Virus record (IMG/VR): IMGVR_UViG_3300048591_000522
Coordinates: 1 to 24,930 of that record
DNA: 24,930 nucleotides
Reading direction: 5' to 3' (one strand)
Origin: a virus
The position numbers were made by a program, and so were the translations under genes. The notes below the pieces were generated by a model. That model did not search any database. It had not been told where the DNA came from and was given only the letters and a program-made list of their open reading frames with translations. How positions within the stretch are numbered: the first letter of the stretch is position 1; each line of letters begins with the position of its first letter. Shown here one piece after another: positions 674-14,341 of the stretch.

Positions 674-930
674 CAGTTGTCCTCACAGCGGTGTAGGGCG
701 TAGCCCCCCGCGCTCAGCAGTCCACGAAAGCTCTGTGTTCGGGGGAAGTCTGCTGTGATTTCATCCCACGTCCACTCCGGGCCGTAGCCCATAGCCGATT
801 CTCCCAGCTTCGGCATTCGGATTTTTCGTTGGTCGGTTAGGGTCGGGAAGAAGTTGAAAAACACGTCCCGGCGGGAATCGAATCGCCCAACAACCTGGTC
901 TCCTTTCGTCAGTAGGTAGTATTGGGTCAT
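673..930 (-). CDS. hypothetical protein (85 aa)
   Basis: Begins with MTQYYLLTKGDQVVGRF, a small beta-rich start reminiscent of short phage accessory proteins. It overlaps the upstream gene by four bases (ATGA) and the downstream gene by one (TGATG), so it sits in a coupled mini-operon. It has a Trp-rich middle (PEWTWDEIT) and one Cys near the C-terminus. No transmembrane segment or signal peptide. No family recognised. Confidence 0.75.
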   Translation of the reverse strand: MTQYYLLTKGDQVVGRFDSRRDVFFNFFPTLTDQRKIRMPKLGESAMGYGPEWTWDEITADFPRTQSFRGLLSAGGYALHRCEDN

Positions 931-1430
931 ACGGTCACCAATAGTTCTATTTCATACCAACCATTCTCTATCGGGGCAACGATTCCGCTGTCATCTATCG
1001 CAGTGTCCCAGATGATTTCCTTGTCTTTACAGACAACAACGTGGTTAGTTCCGTTCCGGCTCTTTCCGGTGAGGAGGTAGGTCACTCCCGGGTTGCGGGT
1101 TCCGAACCAGTTGAGGACATCCTCCGGCCCTTTTTCTTCCCCGGCCCACATAGGGAAGGAGACCGAACGAAGCCCCTGCGTGGCCAAGTATTTTTGGGCT
1201 TCCTGCTCGAATAGGTCGGGGGTTTCCGCGTACACTCCCCAGTTCGGGATCGAGTCCCGGGCTACTCCCAGCACGCAGGCAATCGCAGTTCGGTGGCAGT
1301 CACCATATTGCCCCTCCTCCGGCCGGTGAAGAAAGGCCTGTTTTTGTTTCCGAAGTTCCGGGCTCCCCCAGCTGGCCCTTTCCCGGAAGAGGGCGCGATT
1401 TTCCGGGTCACTCTTTCGGCTCCGGGTCAC
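927..1430 (-). CDS. papain/C39-like cysteine-peptidase-fold protein (167 aa)
   Basis: The central motif GQYGDCHRTAIACVLG places Cys45 at the N-terminus of a helix with Gln41 before it. GTNHVVV supplies His130 on a strand and WDTA supplies Asp142, the order Cys-His-Asp of papain-like and peptidase C39-like folds. Similar one-domain proteins with a GDC...H...D layout are widespread in phages and their hosts with unknown substrate. It is inferred to be a cytosolic protease, amidase or deamidase; catalysis is not proven. No signal peptide. The start is GTG in a GTGA overlap with the upstream gene. A 19-bp tandem duplication covers this start, so the first residues (MTRSRK) derive from the duplicated copy. 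The N-terminal 40 residues are basic and probably flexible. Confidence 0.7.
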   Translation of the reverse strand: MTRSRKSDPENRALFRERASWGSPELRKQKQAFLHRPEEGQYGDCHRTAIACVLGVARDSIPNWGVYAETPDLFEQEAQKYLATQGLRSVSFPMWAGEEKGPEDVLNWFGTRNPGVTYLLTGKSRNGTNHVVVCKDKEIIWDTAIDDSGIVAPIENGWYEIELLVTV

Positions 1431-1445
1431 TCTTTCGGCTCCGGG
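1408..1445. repeat. 19-bp perfect tandem duplication at a gene junction
   Basis: Two adjacent identical 19-bp units, with the match extending about five bases further left (from 1403). One copy encodes the end and stop of the 63-aa gene, the other the first codons of the cysteine-peptidase-like gene. Because 19 is not a multiple of three, the duplication changes which GTGA junction is used. Confidence 0.9.
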
Positions 1446-1618
1446 TTGAAATTGATGGTCAAGCTGACAAGTTGTCCGTCATCCTGCTTCGTCCATGCCA
1501 CTCTTTCGACGCTGCACAGGTTGATACCCATGTGGTTGGGGATCACCGACAGCGGTAGTGGGCAATACACACCATTCAAGTTATCCTGATTTTCCACTTT
1601 GATTTCTTCGTGCTTCAT
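1427..1618 (-). CDS. hypothetical protein (63 aa)
   Basis: The ATG is preceded by AGGAG with an eight-base spacer. The protein starts with an acidic/polar N-terminus (MKHEEIKVENQDN) and has a short conserved-looking core (VIPNHMGINLC), with a C-terminal strand pattern (LVSLTINF). Family not recognised. This is the first phage gene downstream of the cassette array: its Shine-Dalgarno starts about 30 bases left of attC1, so it would be read by transcripts that cross the array from promoter P1. It shares a GTGA overlap with the next gene. Confidence 0.7.
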   Translation of the reverse strand: MKHEEIKVENQDNLNGVYCPLPLSVIPNHMGINLCSVERVAWTKQDDGQLVSLTINFNPEPKE

Positions 1619-1659
1619 GTTCTTTTCTCCTGTTACTGCCGCGCATTCATCGGGTGCAC

Positions 1660-1729
1660 GGCTAACCCGTCATTCCACCGGACGGCCCAAAGCGCAGCTT
1701 TGGTCCTCCGGTGAATTCAGTCGTTATAG
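1660..1729 (+). repeat. attC1 (70 bp)
   Basis: R''-like core GGCTAAC at 1660-1666 and R'-like core GTTATAG at 1723-1729. The inner stem pairs TTCCACCGGA (1673-1682) with TCCGGTGAA (1707-1715), leaving one unpaired C on the left arm, and continues with CCAAAGC / GCTTTGG around a GCA loop. The spacers beside the cores do not pair, as in a typical unpaired central spacer. The extra base is in the left half, which indicates plus-strand polarity. Confidence 0.85.
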
Positions 1730-2212
1730 GAACTTCTTTCGTACATCGTCCAAGAAAATTGGAACTCCACCAACATTTTCGACGCATACGTTTATATATC
1801 TATCATCATCAATACTCCGATGATGCACGTGCCCATGGATGTTTCGCTTTCCGCGCAACTCATCTGGATGAATCGGGGCATGTGTTAGCCAGAATTCTTT
1901 ATATTTAACGATGCCACCAATGACAGAAAACCCTACAGCTTCATACTCAGCAATCTTAAACCTATCATGATTTCCAAAAACCATCTTTTTGATGCCAGTC
2001 AGGCGCTCGGCTTTTGCAAGTCCGTCTTTGCTGAAAGCAATATCACCGAGCACATAAACAACATCACGCTCAGTAACAACTGAGTTCCACTGCTTTATTA
2101 TCCATTCGTCATGACTTTCAACTGATTTACACTCACGCAGCAATGCTGAAAATTCAATGATTTTCTTATGACCTAAATGCAAATCTGATATAAAAAATAC
2201 TTTTGTGCTCAT
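1724..2212 (-). CDS. calcineurin-like metallophosphoesterase, cassette 1 (162 aa)
   Basis: Complete set of metallophosphoesterase motifs: DLH (Asp10, His12), GD (Asp57), GNHD (Asn81, His82), a lone His111, and GHVHH (His128, His130). These ligate two metal ions in the calcineurin-like fold. The short length (162 aa) and the early ISDLHLGH match small bacterial and phage phosphoesterases that hydrolyse phosphomonoesters or phosphodiesters; the substrate is unknown. The start is the ATG at 2212 because an upstream extension would read through attC2. No clear Shine-Dalgarno precedes it. The stop TAA lies in the terminal core of attC1. Codon use is AT-rich compared with the phage genes. It is the most recognisable cargo of the array. 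Confidence 0.9.
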   Translation of the reverse strand: MSTKVFFISDLHLGHKKIIEFSALLRECKSVESHDEWIIKQWNSVVTERDVVYVLGDIAFSKDGLAKAERLTGIKKMVFGNHDRFKIAEYEAVGFSVIGGIVKYKEFWLTHAPIHPDELRGKRNIHGHVHHRSIDDDRYINVCVENVGGVPIFLDDVRKKFL

Positions 2213-2219
2213 ACTGTCA

Positions 2220-2298
2220 CTATAACAACATGCTGTTGCTCGCCCTTTGGGCTGGATTCCTCGCCTGCGGCTCGTCACCGCAAAGCAAGGGGTTAAAC
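2220..2298 (+). repeat. attC2 (79 bp)
   Basis: Cores CTATAAC (2220-2226) and GTTAAAC (2292-2298). A basal stem pairs TTGCT with AGCAA just inside the cores. The interior forms two small hairpins (GCCC-TTT-GGGC and TGCGG...CCGCA), a larger variable terminal structure than the 48-bp sites. It separates the phosphoesterase gene from the next cassette gene. Confidence 0.65.
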
Positions 2299-2301
2299 GA
2301 A

Positions 2302-2496
2302 CTACTTCGCGCTCCACCCATTGCACCACGCACTAGTATTCGTTCTGAAAATAATATCTGGGTTTCTTTTGCATGTGTCGCCGATGCCGAAATTATCAGT
2401 GGTCATATCCTCTGAAAAATGTTTGCAGTTTTTACAGCTATTATGCGCTGTAACATAGCCCATTTTCTCTTTTACCATTTTTACTAAGTCTGTCAT
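2302..2496 (-). CDS. small four-Cys (probable zinc) protein, cassette 2 (64 aa)
   Basis: After a Lys-rich N-terminal helix (about residues 1-15) come CKNCKHF (Cys21, Cys24), GDTCKRNP (Cys42) and WCNGW (Cys58). This CxxC...C...C spacing with aromatic residues is typical of small zinc-knuckle-like phage or mobile-element proteins. Function unknown. I chose the ATG at 2496 because GGAG lies six bases upstream. The 80 bases from this start through attC3 differ at only three positions from the same segment of cassette 4. The stop TAG lies four bases from the attC2 core. Confidence 0.7.
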   Translation of the reverse strand: MTDLVKMVKEKMGYVTAHNSCKNCKHFSEDMTTDNFGIGDTCKRNPDIIFRTNTSAWCNGWSAK

Positions 2497-2523
2497 TTTC
2501 ATCTCCAAGTTTAATTACCGCTC

Positions 2524-2571
2524 GTTTAACAACCGCAGTCATGGGACAAGCCCATGCTGCCAGGGTTATGC
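2524..2571 (+). repeat. attC3 (48 bp)
   Basis: Cores GTTTAAC (2524-2530) and GTTATGC (2565-2571), both good matches to RYYYAAC and GTTRRRY. The stem is GCAG-T-CATGGG / CCCATG-CTGC, with an extrahelical T on the left arm, loop ACAAG and unpaired AACC / CAGG spacers. Nearly identical to attC5 and closely related to attC7. Confidence 0.88.
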
Positions 2572-2766
2572 GTCAACATACCTATACCCAAACGCCGTTA
2601 AAATCATTGTACTGCTGCATCCGTGCGCCCTGACACAATCCATGCAAAACGCAGTACCTTTTTTAACATATCTTGGTTTTTTACTGCAATCTTCAAGACA
2701 GTCAACGCATAACAACTCGCTAGAGGCCGTGGCTGCGCCACTGGACTTGTTCTTCGCTTCGCTCAT
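2566..2766 (-). CDS. small Cys-rich (zinc-finger-like) protein, cassette 3 (66 aa)
   Basis: Two Cys clusters, CVDCLEDC (Cys20, Cys23, Cys27) and CMDCVRAHGC (Cys41, Cys44, Cys50), suggest one treble-clef-like zinc site. Function unknown. The ATG and its GAGGGG Shine-Dalgarno lie inside attC4, so about 18 N-terminal residues (starting MSEAKNKSSG) are encoded by the recombination site itself, and the stop TAA lies in the core of attC3. A later start would remove the attC-encoded tail but no equally good ribosome site is visible. If real, the attC supplies translation signals to its cassette. Confidence 0.65.
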   Translation of the reverse strand: MSEAKNKSSGAATASSELLCVDCLEDCSKKPRYVKKGTAFCMDCVRAHGCSSTMILTAFGYRYVDA

Positions 2767-2793
2767 CTCTCGCCCCTCAGCTCCGGGTTATGT
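2707..2793 (+). repeat. attC4 (87 bp)
   Basis: Cores GCATAAC (2707-2713) and GTTATGT (2787-2793). The outer stem pairs part of GCTAGAGG with the CCCTCAGC side near the right core, with an extra A on the left arm. The longer interior contains a GTGGC...GCCAC hairpin and carries the start codon of the cassette 3 gene. Pairing is less regular than in the 48-bp sites. Confidence 0.6.
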
Positions 2794-2795
2794 GA

Positions 2796-3092
2796 CTATG
2801 CTTTACTGCCGATATGGTGCAAAACTTTCAACTGCATATCTGATATGCCTTTTTGTTTTGCTGCATTGAGTACATTTATCACAGTGCCTATGCCGTGCTG
2901 ATAAATTTCATAACTCTCATCACGATAGCCGCCGCCGTAATCTGTGCAACCTTTCGCCAGCTTCAAAGCATCGTCAAAACTTAGACTATTAATTGCTTCC
3001 AACATTTCATTATGCAAACTTACCATCATCTTTTTAAAATCTGATTCAGGCATACATTGCTCACAAATTCTGCATCTTTCTTCAAATGTCAT
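2796..3092 (-). CDS. hypothetical helical protein, cassette 4 (98 aa)
   Basis: N-terminal CRICEQC (Cys7, Cys10, Cys13) is followed by a predominantly helical protein with a Gly/Tyr-rich turn (DYGGGYRDESYEIY). No family recognised. The ATG at 3092 has GGAG six bases upstream, within a leader shared almost exactly with cassette 2. The stop TAG lies three bases from the attC4 core. Codon use is AT-rich like the other cassettes. Confidence 0.7.
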   Translation of the reverse strand: MTFEERCRICEQCMPESDFKKMMVSLHNEMLEAINSLSFDDALKLAKGCTDYGGGYRDESYEIYQHGIGTVINVLNAAKQKGISDMQLKVLHHIGSKA

Positions 3093-3119
3093 TTTCATCT
3101 CCTAGTTTAATTACCGCTC

Positions 3120-3167
3120 GTTTAACAACCGCAGGCATTGGACAAGCCCATGCTGCCAGGGTTATGT
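3120..3167 (+). repeat. attC5 (48 bp)
   Basis: Cores GTTTAAC (3120-3126) and GTTATGT (3161-3167). The stem is GCAG-G-CATTGG / CCCATG-CTGC, with an extrahelical G on the left arm and one mismatch. Together with 33 bases to its left it matches the attC3 region at 77 of 80 positions. Confidence 0.85.
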
Positions 3168-3323
3168 TCTGTAGTCTTTCTCTGCCGTTAAATATGGGCA
3201 GTCATTTTGTGCCTCTGGCATATTATTTAAAATAGACTCCGCCCAAAGCCTTGCTTTTTCATTGCTAACGCCATGCAACACATACTGCTCTATAGCTTTT
3301 TCTATCCATTCTTCTCTTTTCAC
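3162..3323 (-). CDS. small hypothetical protein, cassette 5 (53 aa)
   Basis: Starts at a GTG preceded by GAGG seven bases upstream and encodes an amphipathic, helical, acidic protein (KREEWIEKAIEQYVLHG near the start, AEKDYRT at the end). The stop TAA is inside the attC5 core, a hallmark of cassette genes. AT-rich codons. No family recognised. Without it this cassette would be empty. Confidence 0.6.
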   Translation of the reverse strand: MKREEWIEKAIEQYVLHGVSNEKARLWAESILNNMPEAQNDCPYLTAEKDYRT

Positions 3324-3347
3324 AATCAACCTCGATTAACCAATCGA

Positions 3348-3395
3348 ACATAACAACCGCTTCAACCGGACAAGCCGGTTAGCGCAGGGTTATGT
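3348..3395 (+). repeat. attC6 (48 bp)
   Basis: Cores ACATAAC (3348-3354) and GTTATGT (3389-3395). The stem is CGCT-TC-AACCGG / CCGGTT-AGCG with loop ACAAG. The left arm TTCAACCGGAC follows the L'' pattern of known attC sites such as aadA7 (TTCAAGCCGAC), strong support for plus-strand polarity. Its core encodes the stop codon of the cassette 6 gene. Confidence 0.88.
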
Positions 3396-3593
3396 GTTAT
3401 CGCCCACAAGTTCTGCCAGTTTTCCTAATGCAGCACGGCTCTTGTTATTGTCTCGAAGCCACCCGCGAGTTGGCAACCTACCTTCTCTATGCGTCAGCAA
3501 TTCTTTAACCGCATCTTGCAGCTCCAAGTAGTGTTCATATTCTTTATTAGAACCTTCTATCCTGTCTTGCATTCTGATTTCCATGTATTCCAT
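3390..3593 (-). CDS. hypothetical acidic/helical protein, cassette 6 (67 aa)
   Basis: The ATG follows an AGAGG Shine-Dalgarno with about eight bases of spacing. The N-terminal half is a charged helix (MEYMEIRMQDRIEGSNKEYE) and the C-terminal half has PTRGWLRDNN and a short helix. The TAA stop lies inside attC6. No family recognised. It is the cassette ORF nearest promoter P1, so it should be the best expressed if transcription decays through the array. Confidence 0.68.
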   Translation of the reverse strand: MEYMEIRMQDRIEGSNKEYEHYLELQDAVKELLTHREGRLPTRGWLRDNNKSRAALGKLAELVGDNT

Positions 3594-3625
3594 TTTTGTT
3601 TACCTCTCAAGTTAATCTTTTGGGT

Positions 3626-3673
3626 GCATAACAACCGCAGGCATGGGACAAGCCCATGCTGCCAGGGTTATAT
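3626..3673 (+). repeat. attC7 (48 bp), right end of the array
   Basis: Cores GCATAAC (3626-3632) and GTTATAT (3667-3673). The stem is GCAG-G-CATGGG / CCCATG-CTGC with loop ACAAG and an extrahelical G on the left arm. The right core lies one base from the stop codon of the 46-aa phage gene, so this is the junction between array and phage DNA. Confidence 0.88.
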
Positions 3674-3674
3674 G

Positions 3675-3815
3675 TCATGCGTTCAGCTTCCGCTCCCATA
3701 TGAATCTCCTGCACTGGGCCCGGTCGTAGATCGCGGTTTCTACCCGGAGGAAGTCCGGGCCGAAGAGGCGGGGCAGGAGGTCAAGGCGGGCTTGGTCGTC
3801 AGTTATGCGGGTCAT
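3675..3815 (-). CDS. small phage protein directly behind promoter P1 (46 aa)
   Basis: Short but well signalled: promoter P1 and the conserved CAGAAATGGAGA leader lead to an ATG with GGAG eight bases upstream. The product starts MTRITDDQARLDLLPRLFG and ends ERKLNA, a charged helical peptide with GC-rich codons like the rest of the phage. No family recognised. Its TGA is one base from the attC7 core, so the array appears to have inserted at or next to the 3' end of this gene. Whether the C-terminus was altered by that insertion cannot be seen here. Confidence 0.65.
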   Translation of the reverse strand: MTRITDDQARLDLLPRLFGPDFLRVETAIYDRAQCRRFIWERKLNA

Positions 3816-6793: not shown

Positions 6794-7026
6794 CACACTC
6801 TCTCCTTCGGGGGAATCCCGGATTTCAGTCTATCCTGAACCGCCTTCCGCAGCTCTACGGGGGCCAGTTCCGTTACGTTTTTGACGGGCTTCGGGAGTAG
6901 GGCCGCAGCTTCCGGCAGAACCCCCTCCAGCTGTTTTACGGTCTTACACGAACGAAGGATTGCCGTCACGTCTGTGTGGAAGTCTTCAATAGCAACAAAC
7001 GCTACCAACAGGTCATTCTTTAACAT
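6793..7026 (-). CDS. helical hypothetical protein (77 aa, possibly longer)
   Basis: The ATG at 7026 has AAGGAGG five bases upstream and is the safest start. The product is helical (NDLLVAFVAIEDFHTDVTAIL) with a basic C-terminus (QDRLKSGIPPKERV). The frame stays open for 30 more codons upstream, and the added residues look protein-like (RFVYGRTLPRIDGFGG). That extension would need an ATT start at 7116, placed as ATTGA over the upstream stop codon. No family recognised. If the longer form is wrong, 7027-7111 is a short intergenic gap. Confidence 0.65.
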   Translation of the reverse strand: MLKNDLLVAFVAIEDFHTDVTAILRSCKTVKQLEGVLPEAAALLPKPVKNVTELAPVELRKAVQDRLKSGIPPKERV

Positions 7027-7111
7027 TCGGGCCTCCTTCAACAAATCCGGGTCAGTAACCCCTCCGAAGCCGTCTATTCTGGGGAGGGTGCGACCGTAGA
7101 CAAATCTCAGT

Positions 7112-7546
7112 TCAATACTTCCTCTGTCCCGCCCGGAGTCGGTCGGCTATCTTCGCGGGAACCGCCAGCCGGACATCCTGCGGGGAGTACCCGGCAACGA
7201 TATCCTTCACCGCTTCGTTGAAATCGTCTATTGCCTTCTGAAGCTCTCCTGGCGGGCTCTCCTCGTGTTCCCAGAAGTCGCCCACGTCCAGGCGGGTAAC
7301 GTATTCCGGGCGACACACTAACAGCCGGAGGTCGGCCAACTCTTCAAAGGAGAGAAGGTCGTCAGCAGCGGCATCCGGGGTGGCGTAAAAACGGTCAAGG
7401 GCTTCGGAATACACGACACCTTCGTGCTCCTCTTCCGGGAGGGAGCGGAACCGCTCCACCTCTTTCTTCTTCCGGCAATCGGGACAACGAAGGCTATTGG
7501 TGCCGGTCATCCGGGCCCCGCAATCGGGGCAGGCAGGAGGTTTCAT
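7112..7546 (-). CDS. zinc-ribbon protein (144 aa)
   Basis: First gene of the P2 transcript. N-terminal CPDCGARM ... RCPDCRKKK (Cys6, Cys9, Cys21, Cys24) is a classical zinc ribbon, followed by a basic linker and then an acidic alpha-helical region (EELADLRLLVCRPEY, GELQKAIDDFNEAVKDIV). Zinc-ribbon plus helical tail suggests a nucleic-acid- or polymerase-binding phage factor; that is inference. ATG preceded by GGAG in the conserved leader. Confidence 0.75.
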   Translation of the reverse strand: MKPPACPDCGARMTGTNSLRCPDCRKKKEVERFRSLPEEEHEGVVYSEALDRFYATPDAAADDLLSFEELADLRLLVCRPEYVTRLDVGDFWEHEESPPGELQKAIDDFNEAVKDIVAGYSPQDVRLAVPAKIADRLRAGQRKY

Positions 7547-8587: not shown

Positions 8588-10990
8588 TCAGAAGGCCGTT
8601 TGTTCCGGCTCCGGAAGGGCCGACCAATCGAATGGGCCCCCAAACTCCCGATCCCAGTGGGCCCGTATTTCCGCCAGCGGGGGGAAATAGTACACATACC
8701 CCCGGCGCTTCACCATAACTTCCATCCCGATCTCGTTGGTGAAGGGCATCTCCACCGTCTCCTGCTTGATCACCGGCCAGTGGTCGGGGAGGGCCTTATG
8801 GATAAACCGCCCGAGGGAGGTGCGGGAAAGCCGGAAGTTGCGCCCCTGATCCCGGAGGTCGTGGATATAGTCGTCATACAGCTCATCCTTAGCTGCCCGG
8901 CCTTCCCACTTTCCGTGGCGCTTCAGTATCCGCCCGTCCACCAGTTTCTCGAAAAACCAGGTTGTCTCCGGGCTCATTGAGAATATCTTCTGCTCCTGGA
9001 GGGCCAGGGTGTTTGGTACAACCCGCACCTCAAAGTCGGCCAGCGAATAGGTGAGGAGGTAGTGAAGGAGGTTTTCCCGCCCGCCTCCCTCCAGGGCTGC
9101 CCGGATCGCCCGGAAGTAGCCATGATCTTGCTTTCGGGCCGCTCCCACATCCAGAACGAAAAACCGGCGCTCATCCAGCCCGGCCGGAATCACCCAGTCA
9201 TCGTTGGAGGCCAGGATGAGGTGGGTATAGTTCGGGGCCGCTTCCGCGTCAACCCCCTTCCCCTCGATGACGATATGCTCCTCAGTGACCAAAGTCTTCA
9301 ACACTGATTCGTGTTTCTTGTCGCCCGCAAAGAAGGCCTCATCACCGAATAACACCACGGTGTCCCGGAGGTGGGCGTTGAAGGAGCCGACAAGGTGCTT
9401 GGAGTCGGATACCTGCAGAAAGTGGCGACCGAAGAGGCCCCCAAACTCCTTCGCAAAAAAAGATTTCCCCGTACCCCTCGGGCCCCGGAGAACCAGGGCC
9501 ACTTCTCCCGGCCCGTCCGGGCACTGAACCGCCCGGGCCATCCAGCCGATCAGGTAGTTGTAGTGGGCTTCGTTTCCGGCACAGAGGTTGTCCCGGAGGT
9601 GCTCCAGGAAGGGGCGGTGCCCTTCCCCCGGGAGGGAGTCGCAAGCGAACCCCCGCCAGAGGTTATAGGCGCTGTCGATCTCCTGGCCGGGGGCAAAAAC
9701 GATGGTCTCATACTGGCGGCGCATTGGGTGGTTGATCCAGAAAGTTCCGGCCGCCTGCTCAATCGGGGCTCCGGCTTCGTTCCGCCCAATCACTACCTTC
9801 CGGTTGCGGTAGCGGTTTTTGAAATCCTCGAAAGACTGCTTGCTGATCTTATACCGCTTCATTGCGGCATCGAATACCTCGCTGATGATGCGGCATTTCC
9901 CGCCAATATCCGCTATGACCGCATGCTTTTCGTTTAGCTCCCGGAGGGTTGGGTCAATCGCCTCCTCCTTCGCCCGCTCTATTTGCCGAAGGGCGTAGCT
10001 CTCCCAGTTGGGCTTCTCCCGGACACTCACTGCGATCTCGTTGGAGCCGGTGATCGCCGCGAAAACCATCTCATCAGGAACCCCCGCCCGGACAAGGTCG
10101 CAGCACACACGGAACAGGGCTTCACTCCGGGAGGAGTACCGGGTGGGGTCTACCGGATCGGCCCCGGAGGCGATAAGCGCCAACGTGTGATCCTTCAGCG
10201 CGGTGTTGTTCTTGGCCGCCCAATCCCGGAGGTCTTCCACCCCAACATCCGCCACGTTCCCGGTGATCACGACCTTCGGCCGCCCGCCCGATAGCGTCCC
10301 GGTGTCCGTAGACTGTACCCGGACGGCGGCGACAAACCGCTCCAGGGGGTATTCCGCCCCTTCCAGCCAGCGAACAACCTGCGTGGAAGTAGGTGTGCGA
10401 CCCTTCGCTTTTTTCTTCTTCGTGGGCAGGTTCACGGTTCCCGGGAGGCGCATTATCCGGTCGATATTGTGGCAGTGGTCGCCCCCGAATATCTTTTCCA
10501 GCTGGATGTTATAGGCCTCCAGCTCTGCGGCCTTCGCCACGCTCCCGTCTATCCGGAGGCGCTCAGAGGGCTCCAGCTTCCAGAACCCCTGGAACCCTCC
10601 CCCGGAGTCCACGATGACCGTGGGGGCCGGGTCGTAGTTCTGAAGTAGCGCCAGCGCACGGGCCCTCTCCTCCTCAATCGCCTCCCCGGGCCGGGGGTCG
10701 ATATCAATATGGAGCCAGCTCATTCGGGCTATGTCTTCCTTGCCGGCCTTGCTATTTATCGGGCGGCGAACCGGATTCACATGGAAATAGAGGTTGCGGC
10801 GGCCCTGATATTTTTCTATCCACTCAGAGGCCTCCCACCATTTCTCTGGGGAAAAGGTGACGGTCTCTGTCACCCCGTCCGGAATGATGGAGGTGAGTGC
10901 CCAGGGGCCTTCGGGAGCCCATTGGCGAAGGAAGGTCACCGCCTCCCGCGTATCAAACGGCGGCATGCCGGGTAGTTTTTTGACCGCCAT
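8588..10990 (-). CDS. primase-helicase: RepB/AEP-type primase plus SF3-like helicase (800 aa)
   Basis: The N-terminal region has primase features of archaeo-eukaryotic/RepB-type enzymes: WLHIDIDPR (Asp96, Asp98), VDSGGGFQGFW (about 128-137), and DHCHNIDRIMRLPGTVN (about 171-187). The C-terminal region is an SF3/D5-like (DUF5906-type) helicase: Walker A GPRGTGKS (503-510), Walker B VVLFGDEA (545-552), sensor LILASN (591-596), and the arginine pair DERRF. The protein would synthesise primers and unwind duplex DNA at the phage fork. One base separates the start from the upstream HTH gene, and GGAGG lies seven bases before the ATG. Multidomain length of about 800 residues is normal for phage primase-helicases. 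Confidence 0.9.
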   Translation of the reverse strand: MAVKKLPGMPPFDTREAVTFLRQWAPEGPWALTSIIPDGVTETVTFSPEKWWEASEWIEKYQGRRNLYFHVNPVRRPINSKAGKEDIARMSWLHIDIDPRPGEAIEEERARALALLQNYDPAPTVIVDSGGGFQGFWKLEPSERLRIDGSVAKAAELEAYNIQLEKIFGGDHCHNIDRIMRLPGTVNLPTKKKKAKGRTPTSTQVVRWLEGAEYPLERFVAAVRVQSTDTGTLSGGRPKVVITGNVADVGVEDLRDWAAKNNTALKDHTLALIASGADPVDPTRYSSRSEALFRVCCDLVRAGVPDEMVFAAITGSNEIAVSVREKPNWESYALRQIERAKEEAIDPTLRELNEKHAVIADIGGKCRIISEVFDAAMKRYKISKQSFEDFKNRYRNRKVVIGRNEAGAPIEQAAGTFWINHPMRRQYETIVFAPGQEIDSAYNLWRGFACDSLPGEGHRPFLEHLRDNLCAGNEAHYNYLIGWMARAVQCPDGPGEVALVLRGPRGTGKSFFAKEFGGLFGRHFLQVSDSKHLVGSFNAHLRDTVVLFGDEAFFAGDKKHESVLKTLVTEEHIVIEGKGVDAEAAPNYTHLILASNDDWVIPAGLDERRFFVLDVGAARKQDHGYFRAIRAALEGGGRENLLHYLLTYSLADFEVRVVPNTLALQEQKIFSMSPETTWFFEKLVDGRILKRHGKWEGRAAKDELYDDYIHDLRDQGRNFRLSRTSLGRFIHKALPDHWPVIKQETVEMPFTNEIGMEVMVKRRGYVYYFPPLAEIRAHWDREFGGPFDWSALPEPEQTAF

Positions 10991-11686: not shown

Positions 11687-11984
11687 ACTCATACTCCATA
11701 CCAAGCAGGCGGGCGGTTTTCGCGGCCTCCAGATAGGTGTAGACACTCCCAAGGGGAACCGTTCGGAACCGCTTCACCCGGACACGGGAGACCCCGTGGA
11801 GGCGGGCCAGGATCAACTCCGGTTCCGTGAGAGGATACCCGGCGAAGAGGGAGGAGTCCGGGCGAACCTCATCCAACACGTCCCCGAGTACCGGGCCGCT
11901 GAATACCAGGTTTCCCGAGGTGAGTACAAACCCCCGGCCCGTCTTTTCGGAAATCCGCCCAGCGAAACGGTCACACGCCTTCAT
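11679..11984 (-). CDS. hypothetical protein (101 aa)
   Basis: Starts MKACDRFAGRISEKTGRGFV, overlapping the polymerase stop by 14 bases. The middle contains an acidic patch (DVLDEVRPDSS) and a helix-like ELILARLHGVSRV segment, ending with a helix (YTYLEAAKTARLLGMEY). It sits between polymerase and nuclease genes, suggesting a replication accessory, but I recognise no family. Confidence 0.68.
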   Translation of the reverse strand: MKACDRFAGRISEKTGRGFVLTSGNLVFSGPVLGDVLDEVRPDSSLFAGYPLTEPELILARLHGVSRVRVKRFRTVPLGSVYTYLEAAKTARLLGMEYEYV

Positions 11985-13959
11985 CGTTGTACCCCATAGA
12001 GTGCCCCCAGCTCTTCCCGATCTCAACATCTACCTTACTGGGAAGCTCCAGCGGGGTACAACTCCTCATTATCTCTGCGGCGGCTTCCGCCTCTTCCGGG
12101 CCCGATACCGAAAAAGCAATCTCATCATGAACCTGGATAATCGTATCCAGCCCGGCGGCGGCGGTCGCAACCATAGCCATCTTTGTCTGGTCAGCAGAAG
12201 CTCCCTGAATAAGCCGGTTCAGGGCCTTGTGTGTCCAGTCATAGTCCCCGTCCGGCTTCCGGGGGAACCTACACCGGCGGCCACTCAGGGTGGTGATAAA
12301 GCCCACCGACTTCGCCCGGCCTTCGGCCGCCCGTGCCAGGGCTTTTACAAACGGCACTTTCTCGTCAAACGCATTGAGGAGGGCCTGCCCCTCGGGCCCG
12401 GCCGCGTCAAACATCTTCGCCCCCTTATCCCAAAGGGCCTGACCTTCGGCCGTATCCACCGGCACCATCCTCCCACGGGGGCCCCGGACAACCCGGCGGG
12501 TCGGCAGGCCGATTTTTTCGCACATCTTCGCCCCGCCCATCCCGTAGCAGAGGCCCAGGAAAATCTCCTTGGCGGCCTTGCGCTTTATCTTCGCCATGTC
12601 GGCCATCATCTGGTGGTTGTCAGTTGACGGGTCATCCCGGTATTTATCACGGGCGGCGATAGCGGCCGCCCAGGCGGTCTCCCCGATCTGGGGCCGGGAA
12701 AGGCAGGCATAGTGAACCGTCATCCGGGGCTCCTGCTGAGAGTAGTCGCAAGAGGCCCACTGCTGGCCGGGCTCCGGCAGGTAGATCGCCCGCCACATAG
12801 AGGCAAACTCATCCCGGGAGGGTTGCTGTTGGAGGTTCGGTTGTTCGCTGGACAGTCTCCCGTAGGCCGCCCCTCCCGTTCCCTGATTTTCGTCATCCTT
12901 CTGCTTGCGCAGCTGGTTGAAGGTGCAATGAATCCGGTTCCGGTCGGTCATTCGATCCCAGATAGAAGCGGCGAAGGTAGTGCGCAGCTTGTTCACTTTC
13001 CGGGCCTGTTCCAGAGCCCGGGCCACCGGGTCTTTTAAGGAGGCCAGGAGAACCTTATCAATATTGGGCTTTCCGGTAGCGGTAGTCTTCAGGTCTACCC
13101 CGATAGACCGGAGAACCGGGGCCAGCACTTCCGCCTTCCAAACGTCCCCGACAGCGATCCGCTGGCCGGTGAGGCGGAAGACTTCCTGAAGTTGAAGGGC
13201 CTCCTGTTCCTTCGCCCAGTCACCTACCCGAAGGAGGTGGGCCGTGTCGATCAACACCCCCCGGCGGCGAAGCCCAGACAGGATCGGAACCAGCCGGGAT
13301 TCCAGGTCATACACCTTCCAGAGCCCCTGAGCATCAATCTCCCGTTCCTGTTTCCGGAGTATCTCCAGAGGCAACCGGGCATCCTGTTCCGCATACCCGC
13401 CCACGTAACGGGCAGGGAGTAACCACATGTCTTTCTTCGGGTCTATCCGGTAGTCAGCGGCGGCGGCCCGCAGAATCGTCTCATCCTTTCCCTCAAACCC
13501 CCACCGGCCCGCGATAGACTGGAGAGAGTAGGAATCGTTCAACTCACAGATAAGCGGATCAGCCACCATCACGTCCCGGAAGAAGCGGGCCCGAGGGAAC
13601 AGAACCCCCTCCCCCGCAAGGCAGTCCAGGTCATAGGATAGATTCGCACCGGCAACATCCCCGGTAAAGGCGGCGGCCTGTTCCCGGAGGTAGCGGAAAA
13701 CCCCATCAACCGGGAGGTTATCCCCCCCGTCATGCCGCACCGGGAGGTAAAAGGCCGGGCCGTCTTCGATGGCGAAACTCACCCCCGTGACGTAGCTGTT
13801 CGCCCTCCTTCCCACGCCCGGCCCGAGGGTAGTCAACCCCGGGTCTCGGGTCTCGCAGTCAATAGCGATCCGGCGGGCTCCCTCCCATAACGGGAGGCGG
13901 GCCAGCTCCGGAGGAGCCCAGCTGGACTCAGCTGTGTGAAATAGGGGCTGGGGTCTCAT
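11971..13959 (-). CDS. family A DNA polymerase with 3'-5' exonuclease (662 aa)
   Basis: Exonuclease motifs: AIDCETR (Asp34, Glu36), GANLSYDLD (Asp110), YAEQDARLPLEIL (Asp193). Polymerase motif A is CDYSQQEPRM (Asp405), motif B is RKAAKEIFLGLCYG (Arg460, Lys464, Tyr472) and motif C is QVHDEIAF (His611, Asp612, Glu613). The N-terminal 5' nuclease of bacterial Pol I is absent, as usual for phage enzymes. The position equivalent to E. coli Phe762 is Leu468. ATG at 13959 with a TTG directly before it as alternative. It overlaps the DUF3310 gene by 32 bases. It must copy templates carrying modified thymidine if the neighbouring modification genes act as predicted. Confidence 0.95.
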   Translation of the reverse strand: MRPQPLFHTAESSWAPPELARLPLWEGARRIAIDCETRDPGLTTLGPGVGRRANSYVTGVSFAIEDGPAFYLPVRHDGGDNLPVDGVFRYLREQAAAFTGDVAGANLSYDLDCLAGEGVLFPRARFFRDVMVADPLICELNDSYSLQSIAGRWGFEGKDETILRAAAADYRIDPKKDMWLLPARYVGGYAEQDARLPLEILRKQEREIDAQGLWKVYDLESRLVPILSGLRRRGVLIDTAHLLRVGDWAKEQEALQLQEVFRLTGQRIAVGDVWKAEVLAPVLRSIGVDLKTTATGKPNIDKVLLASLKDPVARALEQARKVNKLRTTFAASIWDRMTDRNRIHCTFNQLRKQKDDENQGTGGAAYGRLSSEQPNLQQQPSRDEFASMWRAIYLPEPGQQWASCDYSQQEPRMTVHYACLSRPQIGETAWAAAIAARDKYRDDPSTDNHQMMADMAKIKRKAAKEIFLGLCYGMGGAKMCEKIGLPTRRVVRGPRGRMVPVDTAEGQALWDKGAKMFDAAGPEGQALLNAFDEKVPFVKALARAAEGRAKSVGFITTLSGRRCRFPRKPDGDYDWTHKALNRLIQGASADQTKMAMVATAAAGLDTIIQVHDEIAFSVSGPEEAEAAAEIMRSCTPLELPSKVDVEIGKSWGHSMGYNDEGV

Positions 13960-14341
13960 CAATCATCGTCTCAAGTAATAGAACGACTTTCTGCAGGTCT
14001 TGTTCCGTCTCCCAGAAGGTGACCAGCTCCACCGCCAGGCGCTCCTGATCCGTCAACCCGTTTTCCTTCGCAAAACCGGATACCGGGAGAGGAAGCCCAC
14101 GAAGAGGGTTTGTGCGCGGCTTCACGGTTCCCGCCCGGAAGGCCTCTTCCAGCTTCTGAAGGTAGTGTACCGCCTTCCGGAGGTCTTGGGCGGGGCTTTC
14201 GTGCTTCTTCCGGCTCCGGGAAATATACTTGGTTGCGCACCCTTCCAGGTAGCCCAAACCGTTATGAAGGACAAAATCCCAGTGTTGTATCCGGGCCTTG
14301 TAGTGGGCTCCCCCCACCTGGGTTTCGTTCGCTCGGGTCAT
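13928..14341 (-). CDS. DUF3310-type phage protein (137 aa)
   Basis: The N-terminal 65 residues carry the DUF3310 pattern: VGGAHYK, then IQHWDFVLHNGLGYLEG, CATKYISRSRKK and DLRKAVHYLQKLEE. This small helical domain is very common in phages and often annotated as nucleotide-kinase-like without proof. The C-terminal half (about 70-137) is an additional helical region (ERLAVELVTFWETEQDLQKV). ATGA overlap upstream, and it lies between the HD hydrolase and DNA polymerase, which fits nucleotide metabolism. Confidence 0.85.
   Translation of the reverse strand: MTRANETQVGGAHYKARIQHWDFVLHNGLGYLEGCATKYISRSRKKHESPAQDLRKAVHYLQKLEEAFRAGTVKPRTNPLRGLPLPVSGFAKENGLTDQERLAVELVTFWETEQDLQKVVLLLETMIDETPAPISHS

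Follow-up and report, generated by a model that had tools for sequence, protein, structure and literature searches.

Phage-borne integron-type cassettes whose genes lie antisense to their attC sites

How does an array of integron-type cassettes come to lie in a phage genome, and are its units built like those of bacteria? The question is raised by positions 1660-3673 of IMG/VR virus record IMGVR_UViG_3300048591_000522, a linear 24.9-kb metagenomic contig whose full length of 24,930 bases is referred to here as the window. The initial annotation of this segment, made from the sequence alone, described seven attC-like sites bracketing six cassettes with a single open reading frame (ORF) each, in DNA richer in A and T than the phage and with no integrase in view. 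Each of these points is confirmed by our analysis. The interpretation of the segment as an integrase-less cassette array in a phage also stands, except that it overlooked the orientation of the ORFs, which are antisense to their attC sites.

All seven sites are located on the + strand, and each possesses R″/R′ boxes, L″/L′ stems, unpaired spacers and one or two extrahelical bases. They are listed below with their lengths in nucleotides (nt) and the bulge scores of their 5′ and 3′ arms.

attC1, 1660-1729, top strand +: leftmost site, 70 nt, two extrahelical bases in the 5′ arm; arm score 11.7 (5′) versus 4.7 (3′).
attC2, 2220-2298, +: 79 nt; arm score 8.2 (5′) versus 4.7 (3′).
attC3, 2524-2571, +: 48 nt, loop GGACAAGCC; arm score 11.1 versus 1.9.
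attC4, 2707-2793, +: 87 nt; arm score 7.5 versus 7.3.
attC5, 3120-3167, +: 48 nt; arm score 8.3 versus 1.0.
attC6, 3348-3395, +: 48 nt; arm score 10.8 versus 3.5.
attC7, 3626-3673, +: 48 nt, rightmost site, with its G/TT crossover at 3667/3668, closing the array; arm score 11.1 versus 1.0.

A scorer written for this analysis, which seeks R″/R′ and L″/L′ with a bulge, detected these seven sites on the + strand of the array. In 200 Markov simulations of the same 2.1 kb it found none in 167, one in 29 and two in 4; because simulated sequence yielded at most two sites, the seven-site array is real and not a product of chance. The hairpins are thus of the attC type, with R″/R′, L″/L′ and extrahelical bases, as judged by our own scorer and by covariation rather than by the IntegronFinder model. 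An Rfam search gave no match, exact and gapped attC patterns run across genome and viral collections returned nothing or chance matches, and a blast search of named phages with one 48-nt attC gave chance matches only.

In a normal cassette, the top strand of attC is the coding strand. In the window, the 5′ arm outscores the 3′ arm on the + strand at 7/7 sites, clearly in six and near-equally in attC4; in control integrons from a class 1 plasmid, Vibrio and Shewanella, it scores higher on the coding strand in 13 of 14 attCs, a count that leaves out the site at 2249-2372 of L007, located inside a gene. In six of the seven window sites a TAACAA box comes next on the + strand, just as control attCs have it on their coding strand. 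Across 37 nt, the + strand of attC4 shares 89% identity with the attC end of the blaOXA-129 cassette, in which the blaOXA-129 gene occupies the same strand. Covariance models were built from 48-nt sites, since a MAFFT alignment of all seven window sites misaligned the long ones. Model R1, derived from the + strands of four window sites, matches a site of Tetrasphaera phage TJE1 and a Shewanella site, both on the coding strand, and in 398 Pseudomonadota genomes it matched bacterial attCs that are mostly downstream of a same-strand ORF. Model R2, derived from 28 aligned 48-nt sites, matches nine control sites, on coding strands only. On these sequence grounds, the top strand of the window attCs is the + strand, and the ORFs, including an unmistakable phosphoesterase gene, are all antisense on the − strand.

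The canonical sense arrangement, with the ORF on the attC top strand and attC at the 3′ end of the ORF, was found in none of the six cassettes. Every attC-to-attC interval contains one small ORF on the − strand, as is typical of arrays of short, mostly single-ORF units, and this ORF begins close beside its attC, usually behind a Shine-Dalgarno box. Read along the + strand, the mobile unit consists of a stop codon, the antisense ORF, a start codon, the Shine-Dalgarno box, about 24 nt, attC and a G; in transcription order, attC leads each gene.

Cassette f, 1724-2292, −: ORF 1724-2212, a calcineurin-like phosphoesterase of 162 amino acids (aa), phrog_547 (PHROG 1.4e-54; Pfam PF12850 1.7e-6); attC2.
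Cassette e, 2293-2565, −: ORF 2302-2496, 64 aa, Shine-Dalgarno GGAG, start codon 28 nt from attC3.
Cassette d, 2566-2787, −: Cys-rich ORF within 2566-2766, start uncertain (ATG at 2766 inside attC4); weak DksA-like PHROG match (E=0.022).
Cassette c, 2788-3161, −: ORF 2796-3092, 98 aa, AGGAG, 28 nt from attC5.
Cassette b, 3162-3389, −: ORF 3162-3323, 53 aa, GTG start, GAGG, 25 nt from attC6.
Cassette a, 3390-3667, −: ORF 3390-3593, 67 aa, GAGG, 33 nt from attC7; its leader and a leader in viral contig L110 share 89% identity.

The leader and attC of cassettes c and e (3087-3166 and 2491-2570, respectively) are 96% identical, their ORFs are unrelated, and the two sequences diverge at the crossover and past the start codon. 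Such near-identical leaders and attCs before unrelated ORFs are possibly a trace of cassette formation, and because attC, leader and ribosome site are common to cassettes with different ORFs, they bear on the open question of cassette origin. No plasmid relative of cassette c was found.

This layout recurs in other viruses. Patterns of the attC family matched 19 and 18 viral contigs in two overlapping sets, R2 detected arrays of at least five sites in L086, L087, L091, L095, L098, L101, L103, L108 and L110, and attC6 shares about 87-91% identity with attCs in viral contigs L098, L102 and L089. The 28 sites of 48 nt align without gaps, and standard base pairs occupy 88.5% of the paired cells compared to 29-36% when the alignment is slid; of the 18 pairs, 13 show changes on both sides, and every row retains the extrahelical column (column 16). 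Within 1.2 kb, coding opposes attC at 23 of 31 viral sites versus 0 of 10 bacterial sites (Fisher p = 4e-5). Counted by cassette, and leaving out five contigs picked after their sense ORFs were seen, 62 are antisense and 4 sense; given that these contigs were set aside once orientation was known, we report both counts. A Shine-Dalgarno box precedes 49 of the 66 antisense ORFs adjoining phage attCs, with the start codon at a median of 24 nt from R″. L087 carries two attC arrays on opposite strands, 861-2809 (+) and 6999-7355 (−), with no sense cassette call in either. In the cultured virulent phage H101, attCs lie on the + strand and every annotated coding sequence of the region on the − strand. 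In total, the antisense layout is common to the window, about 20 other viral contigs and H101. The ends of the sites also differ, being mostly GGGTTA in phages versus GGCGTTA in bacteria. The initial annotation had left room for the repeats to score as something other than attC or to be conserved, non-mobile intergenic elements of related phages. Neither was found: R1 and R2, models of our own, group the sites with known attCs, and related phages carry differing cassettes, with no fixed intergenic element.

Signatures of recombination are visible at the cassette ends. Over 56 closed cassettes, all arrays pooled, 5.09 of the 7 bases at the start of a cassette agree with the complement of its own R″, whereas the same comparison gives 3.65 inside one linear attC and 3.45 with shuffled partners (maximum 3.86 in 2000 shuffles). 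This own-end complementarity agrees with the expectation for an excised circle, and the ends are those of an integron array with a G/TTRRRY crossover. Among 76 homologous pairs containing an attC, similarity continues for 10 nt or more on the leader side in 15, compared with 1 for the R′ side. L102 and L108 share a core stretch 95% identical, and a further homologous block ends at the R′ crossover, beyond which attCs and cassettes are different. L102 is the same contig as L026, a primase relative of the window whose array was missed by a high-threshold attC-cluster search of primase relatives and recovered by the pattern search and R2.

Profile searches of the window bear out the lack of a visible integrase: no integron integrase (TIGR02249) scored above the family cut-off in the window or in 27 other contigs, and no tyrosine recombinase (PF00589) was found in the window or in several long contigs. 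The locus does not qualify as a complete integron, for the contig, itself incomplete, carries no intI; no separate search for attI was made. With no integron integrase of phage origin detected, these sites are presumably served by a host enzyme. Polarity and the marks of mobility can be read from the sequences themselves, while the enzyme and present-day mobility are what we infer from them.

The predicted cargo of these phage cassettes consists of phage-type, small accessory and counter-defence genes. It includes two N6/N4 DNA methyltransferases and a Rha regulator, along with many PHROG families whose function is unknown, and a cassette of L091 near 2691 (reverse complement coordinates) encodes an Acb2/Tad1-type counter-defence sponge protein (Pfam PF24729, 1.7e-21). 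In three IMG/VR contigs (L092, L096 and L097), sense-type attC cassettes lie beside genes with Cap15, Mrr and FRG domains; these are probably bacterial defence cargo in or beside prophages.

The interpretation that we consider probable is that the array is a genuine integron array of phage-specific, attC-first cassettes, exchanged via host integron integrases and expressed by phage transcription. A host-supplied integron integrase would recombine the folded bottom strand of attC, and units would move between phages co-infecting one cell or between a phage and a prophage. The orientation of insertion would be set by attC polarity, and antisense units would be read from phage promoters using their own ribosome sites. 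Because polarity fixes the direction of insertion, a phage whose attC top strand opposes its transcription would express antisense units only, which would keep the phage pool separate from the bacterial pool of sense cassettes driven by Pc. In our judgment the balance is even on a broader proposal, in which phages of Gram-negative hosts share a pool of cassettes of reversed polarity and trade accessory and counter-defence genes via host integrases, their hosts trading defence genes by sense cassettes. Reversed polarity may also place the recombining attC strand on the non-template strand, and possibly on the lagging-strand template, which would favor folding and high exchange. In an inverted Vibrio cholerae superintegron, a recombinogenic strand on the lagging template raises excision (PMC11023631), and by analogy the phage layout could have a similar effect.

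Several observations weigh against this interpretation. The cassettes of TJE1 are sense, hence the antisense rule is not universal among phage arrays. The five contigs resembling bacterial ones were first excluded for their sense ORFs, and the Pfam check that revealed defence-type domains in three of them came afterwards. Polarity is itself weakly marked at some sites, as the arm scores of attC4 are nearly equal (7.5 versus 7.3) and two H101 sites are ambiguous by arm score, with one clear. The bacterial control consists of ten sites only, most viral contigs are metagenomic fragments, gene calls came from a simple home-made caller, the phages themselves supplied most of the 28 aligned sites, and the 76 homology pairs lack independence. 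Finally, no recombination was observed, and the phage is without a known host or integrase.

Could the array instead be an ordinary fragment of a bacterial one, captured by illegitimate or off-target recombination and carried as passive cargo, as Qi et al. 2023 suggest for other clusters? This attC family occurs in bacteria too, the GC content of the array is unlike that of the phage (0.43 for 1660-3673 versus about 0.60), and an insertion beside a truncated klcA resembles a single intrusion. Sampled bacterial sites, however, adjoin sense ORFs, and the sharing of antisense ORFs by this array and about 20 viral contigs argues against a simple capture, as do the distinct sequence style of the phage sites (GGGTTA versus GGCGTTA ends) and a cargo that includes phage-type genes. 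We therefore regard passive capture as unlikely. A chimeric assembly joining a phage to a bacterial array could be suspected in a single linear metagenomic record with a sharp GC step and no reads to check it, but the ends of the low-GC block fit attC boundaries, both flanks are phage genes, and the layout recurs in many contigs and in one cultured phage genome, which makes a chimera scarcely credible.

The hairpins might also be RNA or DNA elements of phage transcripts, such as a 5′ leader, processing site or terminator copied before each gene, an idea that would suit their stable folds and near-constant distance upstream of start codons. It is hard to reconcile with the conservation of the TAAC and GTTA boxes, with cassette ends complementary beyond all 2000 shuffles, with homology that ends at the G/TT crossover side, with the detection of known attCs by R1 and R2, and with the recombination by IntI1 of attCs from H101, which has the same layout, described by Qi et al. 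2023 (PMC9892861); we hold it to be improbable. A comparably small chance attaches to a polarity that is only apparent, the other strand being recombined by an integrase of reversed strand preference and the cassettes being functionally ordinary. With strands swapped, stops in the box beside one attC and starts near the other would indeed describe a normal cassette. Yet where this fold occurs in bacteria, with an identically placed extrahelical base, the copies are sense. The leader stays joined to attC, the limit of homology lies at the R′ side on the + strand, and IntI1 favored the bottom strand of phage attCs (PMC9892861).

The initial annotation presented cassettes in a phage as a novelty, which they are not. 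Qi et al. 2023 (PMC9892861) report 17 integrase-less attC clusters (CALIN) in phages, hence a phage-borne array as such is not new. They tested six sites, taken from three virulent phages, and IntI1 recombined five, the bottom strand performing better. Those clusters, carried by virulent phages, share with ours intI-less attC arrays and small single-ORF cassettes, some encoding DNA methyltransferases. IntI1 recombines several of their sites; this published result covers H101, whose layout is the same, and does not extend to the array of the window. Antisense polarity is not reported in the accessible part of that source, and it is found here in H101, a member of that set, unlike in TJE1, another member, which is sense. 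Cassettes of sedentary chromosomal and mobile integrons (class 1, Vibrio, Shewanella) resemble the phage units in attC fold, R″/R′, extrahelical bases, G/TT crossover and own-end complementarity. In canonical cassettes, attC lies at the 3′ end of a same-strand ORF, and the unit usually lacks a promoter and is transcribed from Pc, whereas here attC leads an ORF of the opposite strand and most units have their own ribosome site. Treponema integrons (PMC3607928) similarly show an unusual orientation of integron parts; a reversed integron of that type was rejected because there intI is reversed and the cassette genes run its way, while here the relation of ORF to attC is reversed. The inverted V. 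cholerae superintegron (PMC11023631) likewise changes the replication strand that bears the recombinogenic attC strand, though it is a laboratory inversion of a whole array in which the relation of ORF to attC is kept. No report of antisense cassette polarity was found in the literature searched, which excluded preprints and most subscription papers.

If our interpretation is correct, a separate pool of phage cassettes moved by host integrases would provide a route for swapping small accessory and counter-defence genes among phages, and would tie integrons into the phage-host arms race from both sides. The layout also offers a searchable signature, an antisense attC with a start codon about 24 nt away, for mobile phage genes of unknown function.

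The genes of the contig, nearly all on the − strand, resemble the replication region of Mesyanzhinovviridae phages, and the order of thymidylate synthase, polymerase and primase is similar. The contig lacks structural genes; its assignment to this type relies on a homologous replication module with about 70% identity to MW2 and Yua-type phages. The initial annotation placed the array inside that module, a location that proved incorrect: it sits in a variable region past the replication genes, adjoining a truncated klcA-like anti-restriction gene. The flanking and diagnostic genes are as follows.

927-1430, −: left-flank phage gene phrog_5845 (E=1e-25), with a homologue in viral relative L038.
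1427-1618, −: ORF of 63 aa, AGGAG, start 42 nt from attC1.
3675-3815, −: remnant of a KlcA/ArdB-type anti-restriction gene, 46 aa; over residues 2-34 it shares 61-64% identity with Mesyanzhinovviridae homologues 137-142 aa long.
8588-10990, −: primase/helicase, a phage gene used as the query for finding relatives.
11971-13962, −: DNA polymerase A, sharing about 70% identity with Bordetella phage MW2 and Pseudomonas phage PAE1.

The KlcA/ArdB-type gene is intact in Mesyanzhinovviridae relatives. In the window, homology ends at 3714, 40 nt short of attC7, and the remaining gene is absent on the other side of the array, which together indicate that insertion was accompanied by a deletion. Relatives sought via the genes flanking the array were not obtained, and an empty site is not directly shown. 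ORF 1427-1618 is possibly a seventh antisense cassette; a matching left boundary was looked for and not found. At the junction of this ORF with ORF 927-1430, near the left edge of the array, an exact 19-bp tandem duplication (TCCGGGTCACTCTTTCGGC) occupies 1402-1439. At the left end of the contig, 45-89 and 138-182 form a long imperfect inverted repeat with 45-nt arms (82%) and AT-rich triplet runs, a structure that could belong to replication or to a terminus, or could stem from assembly.

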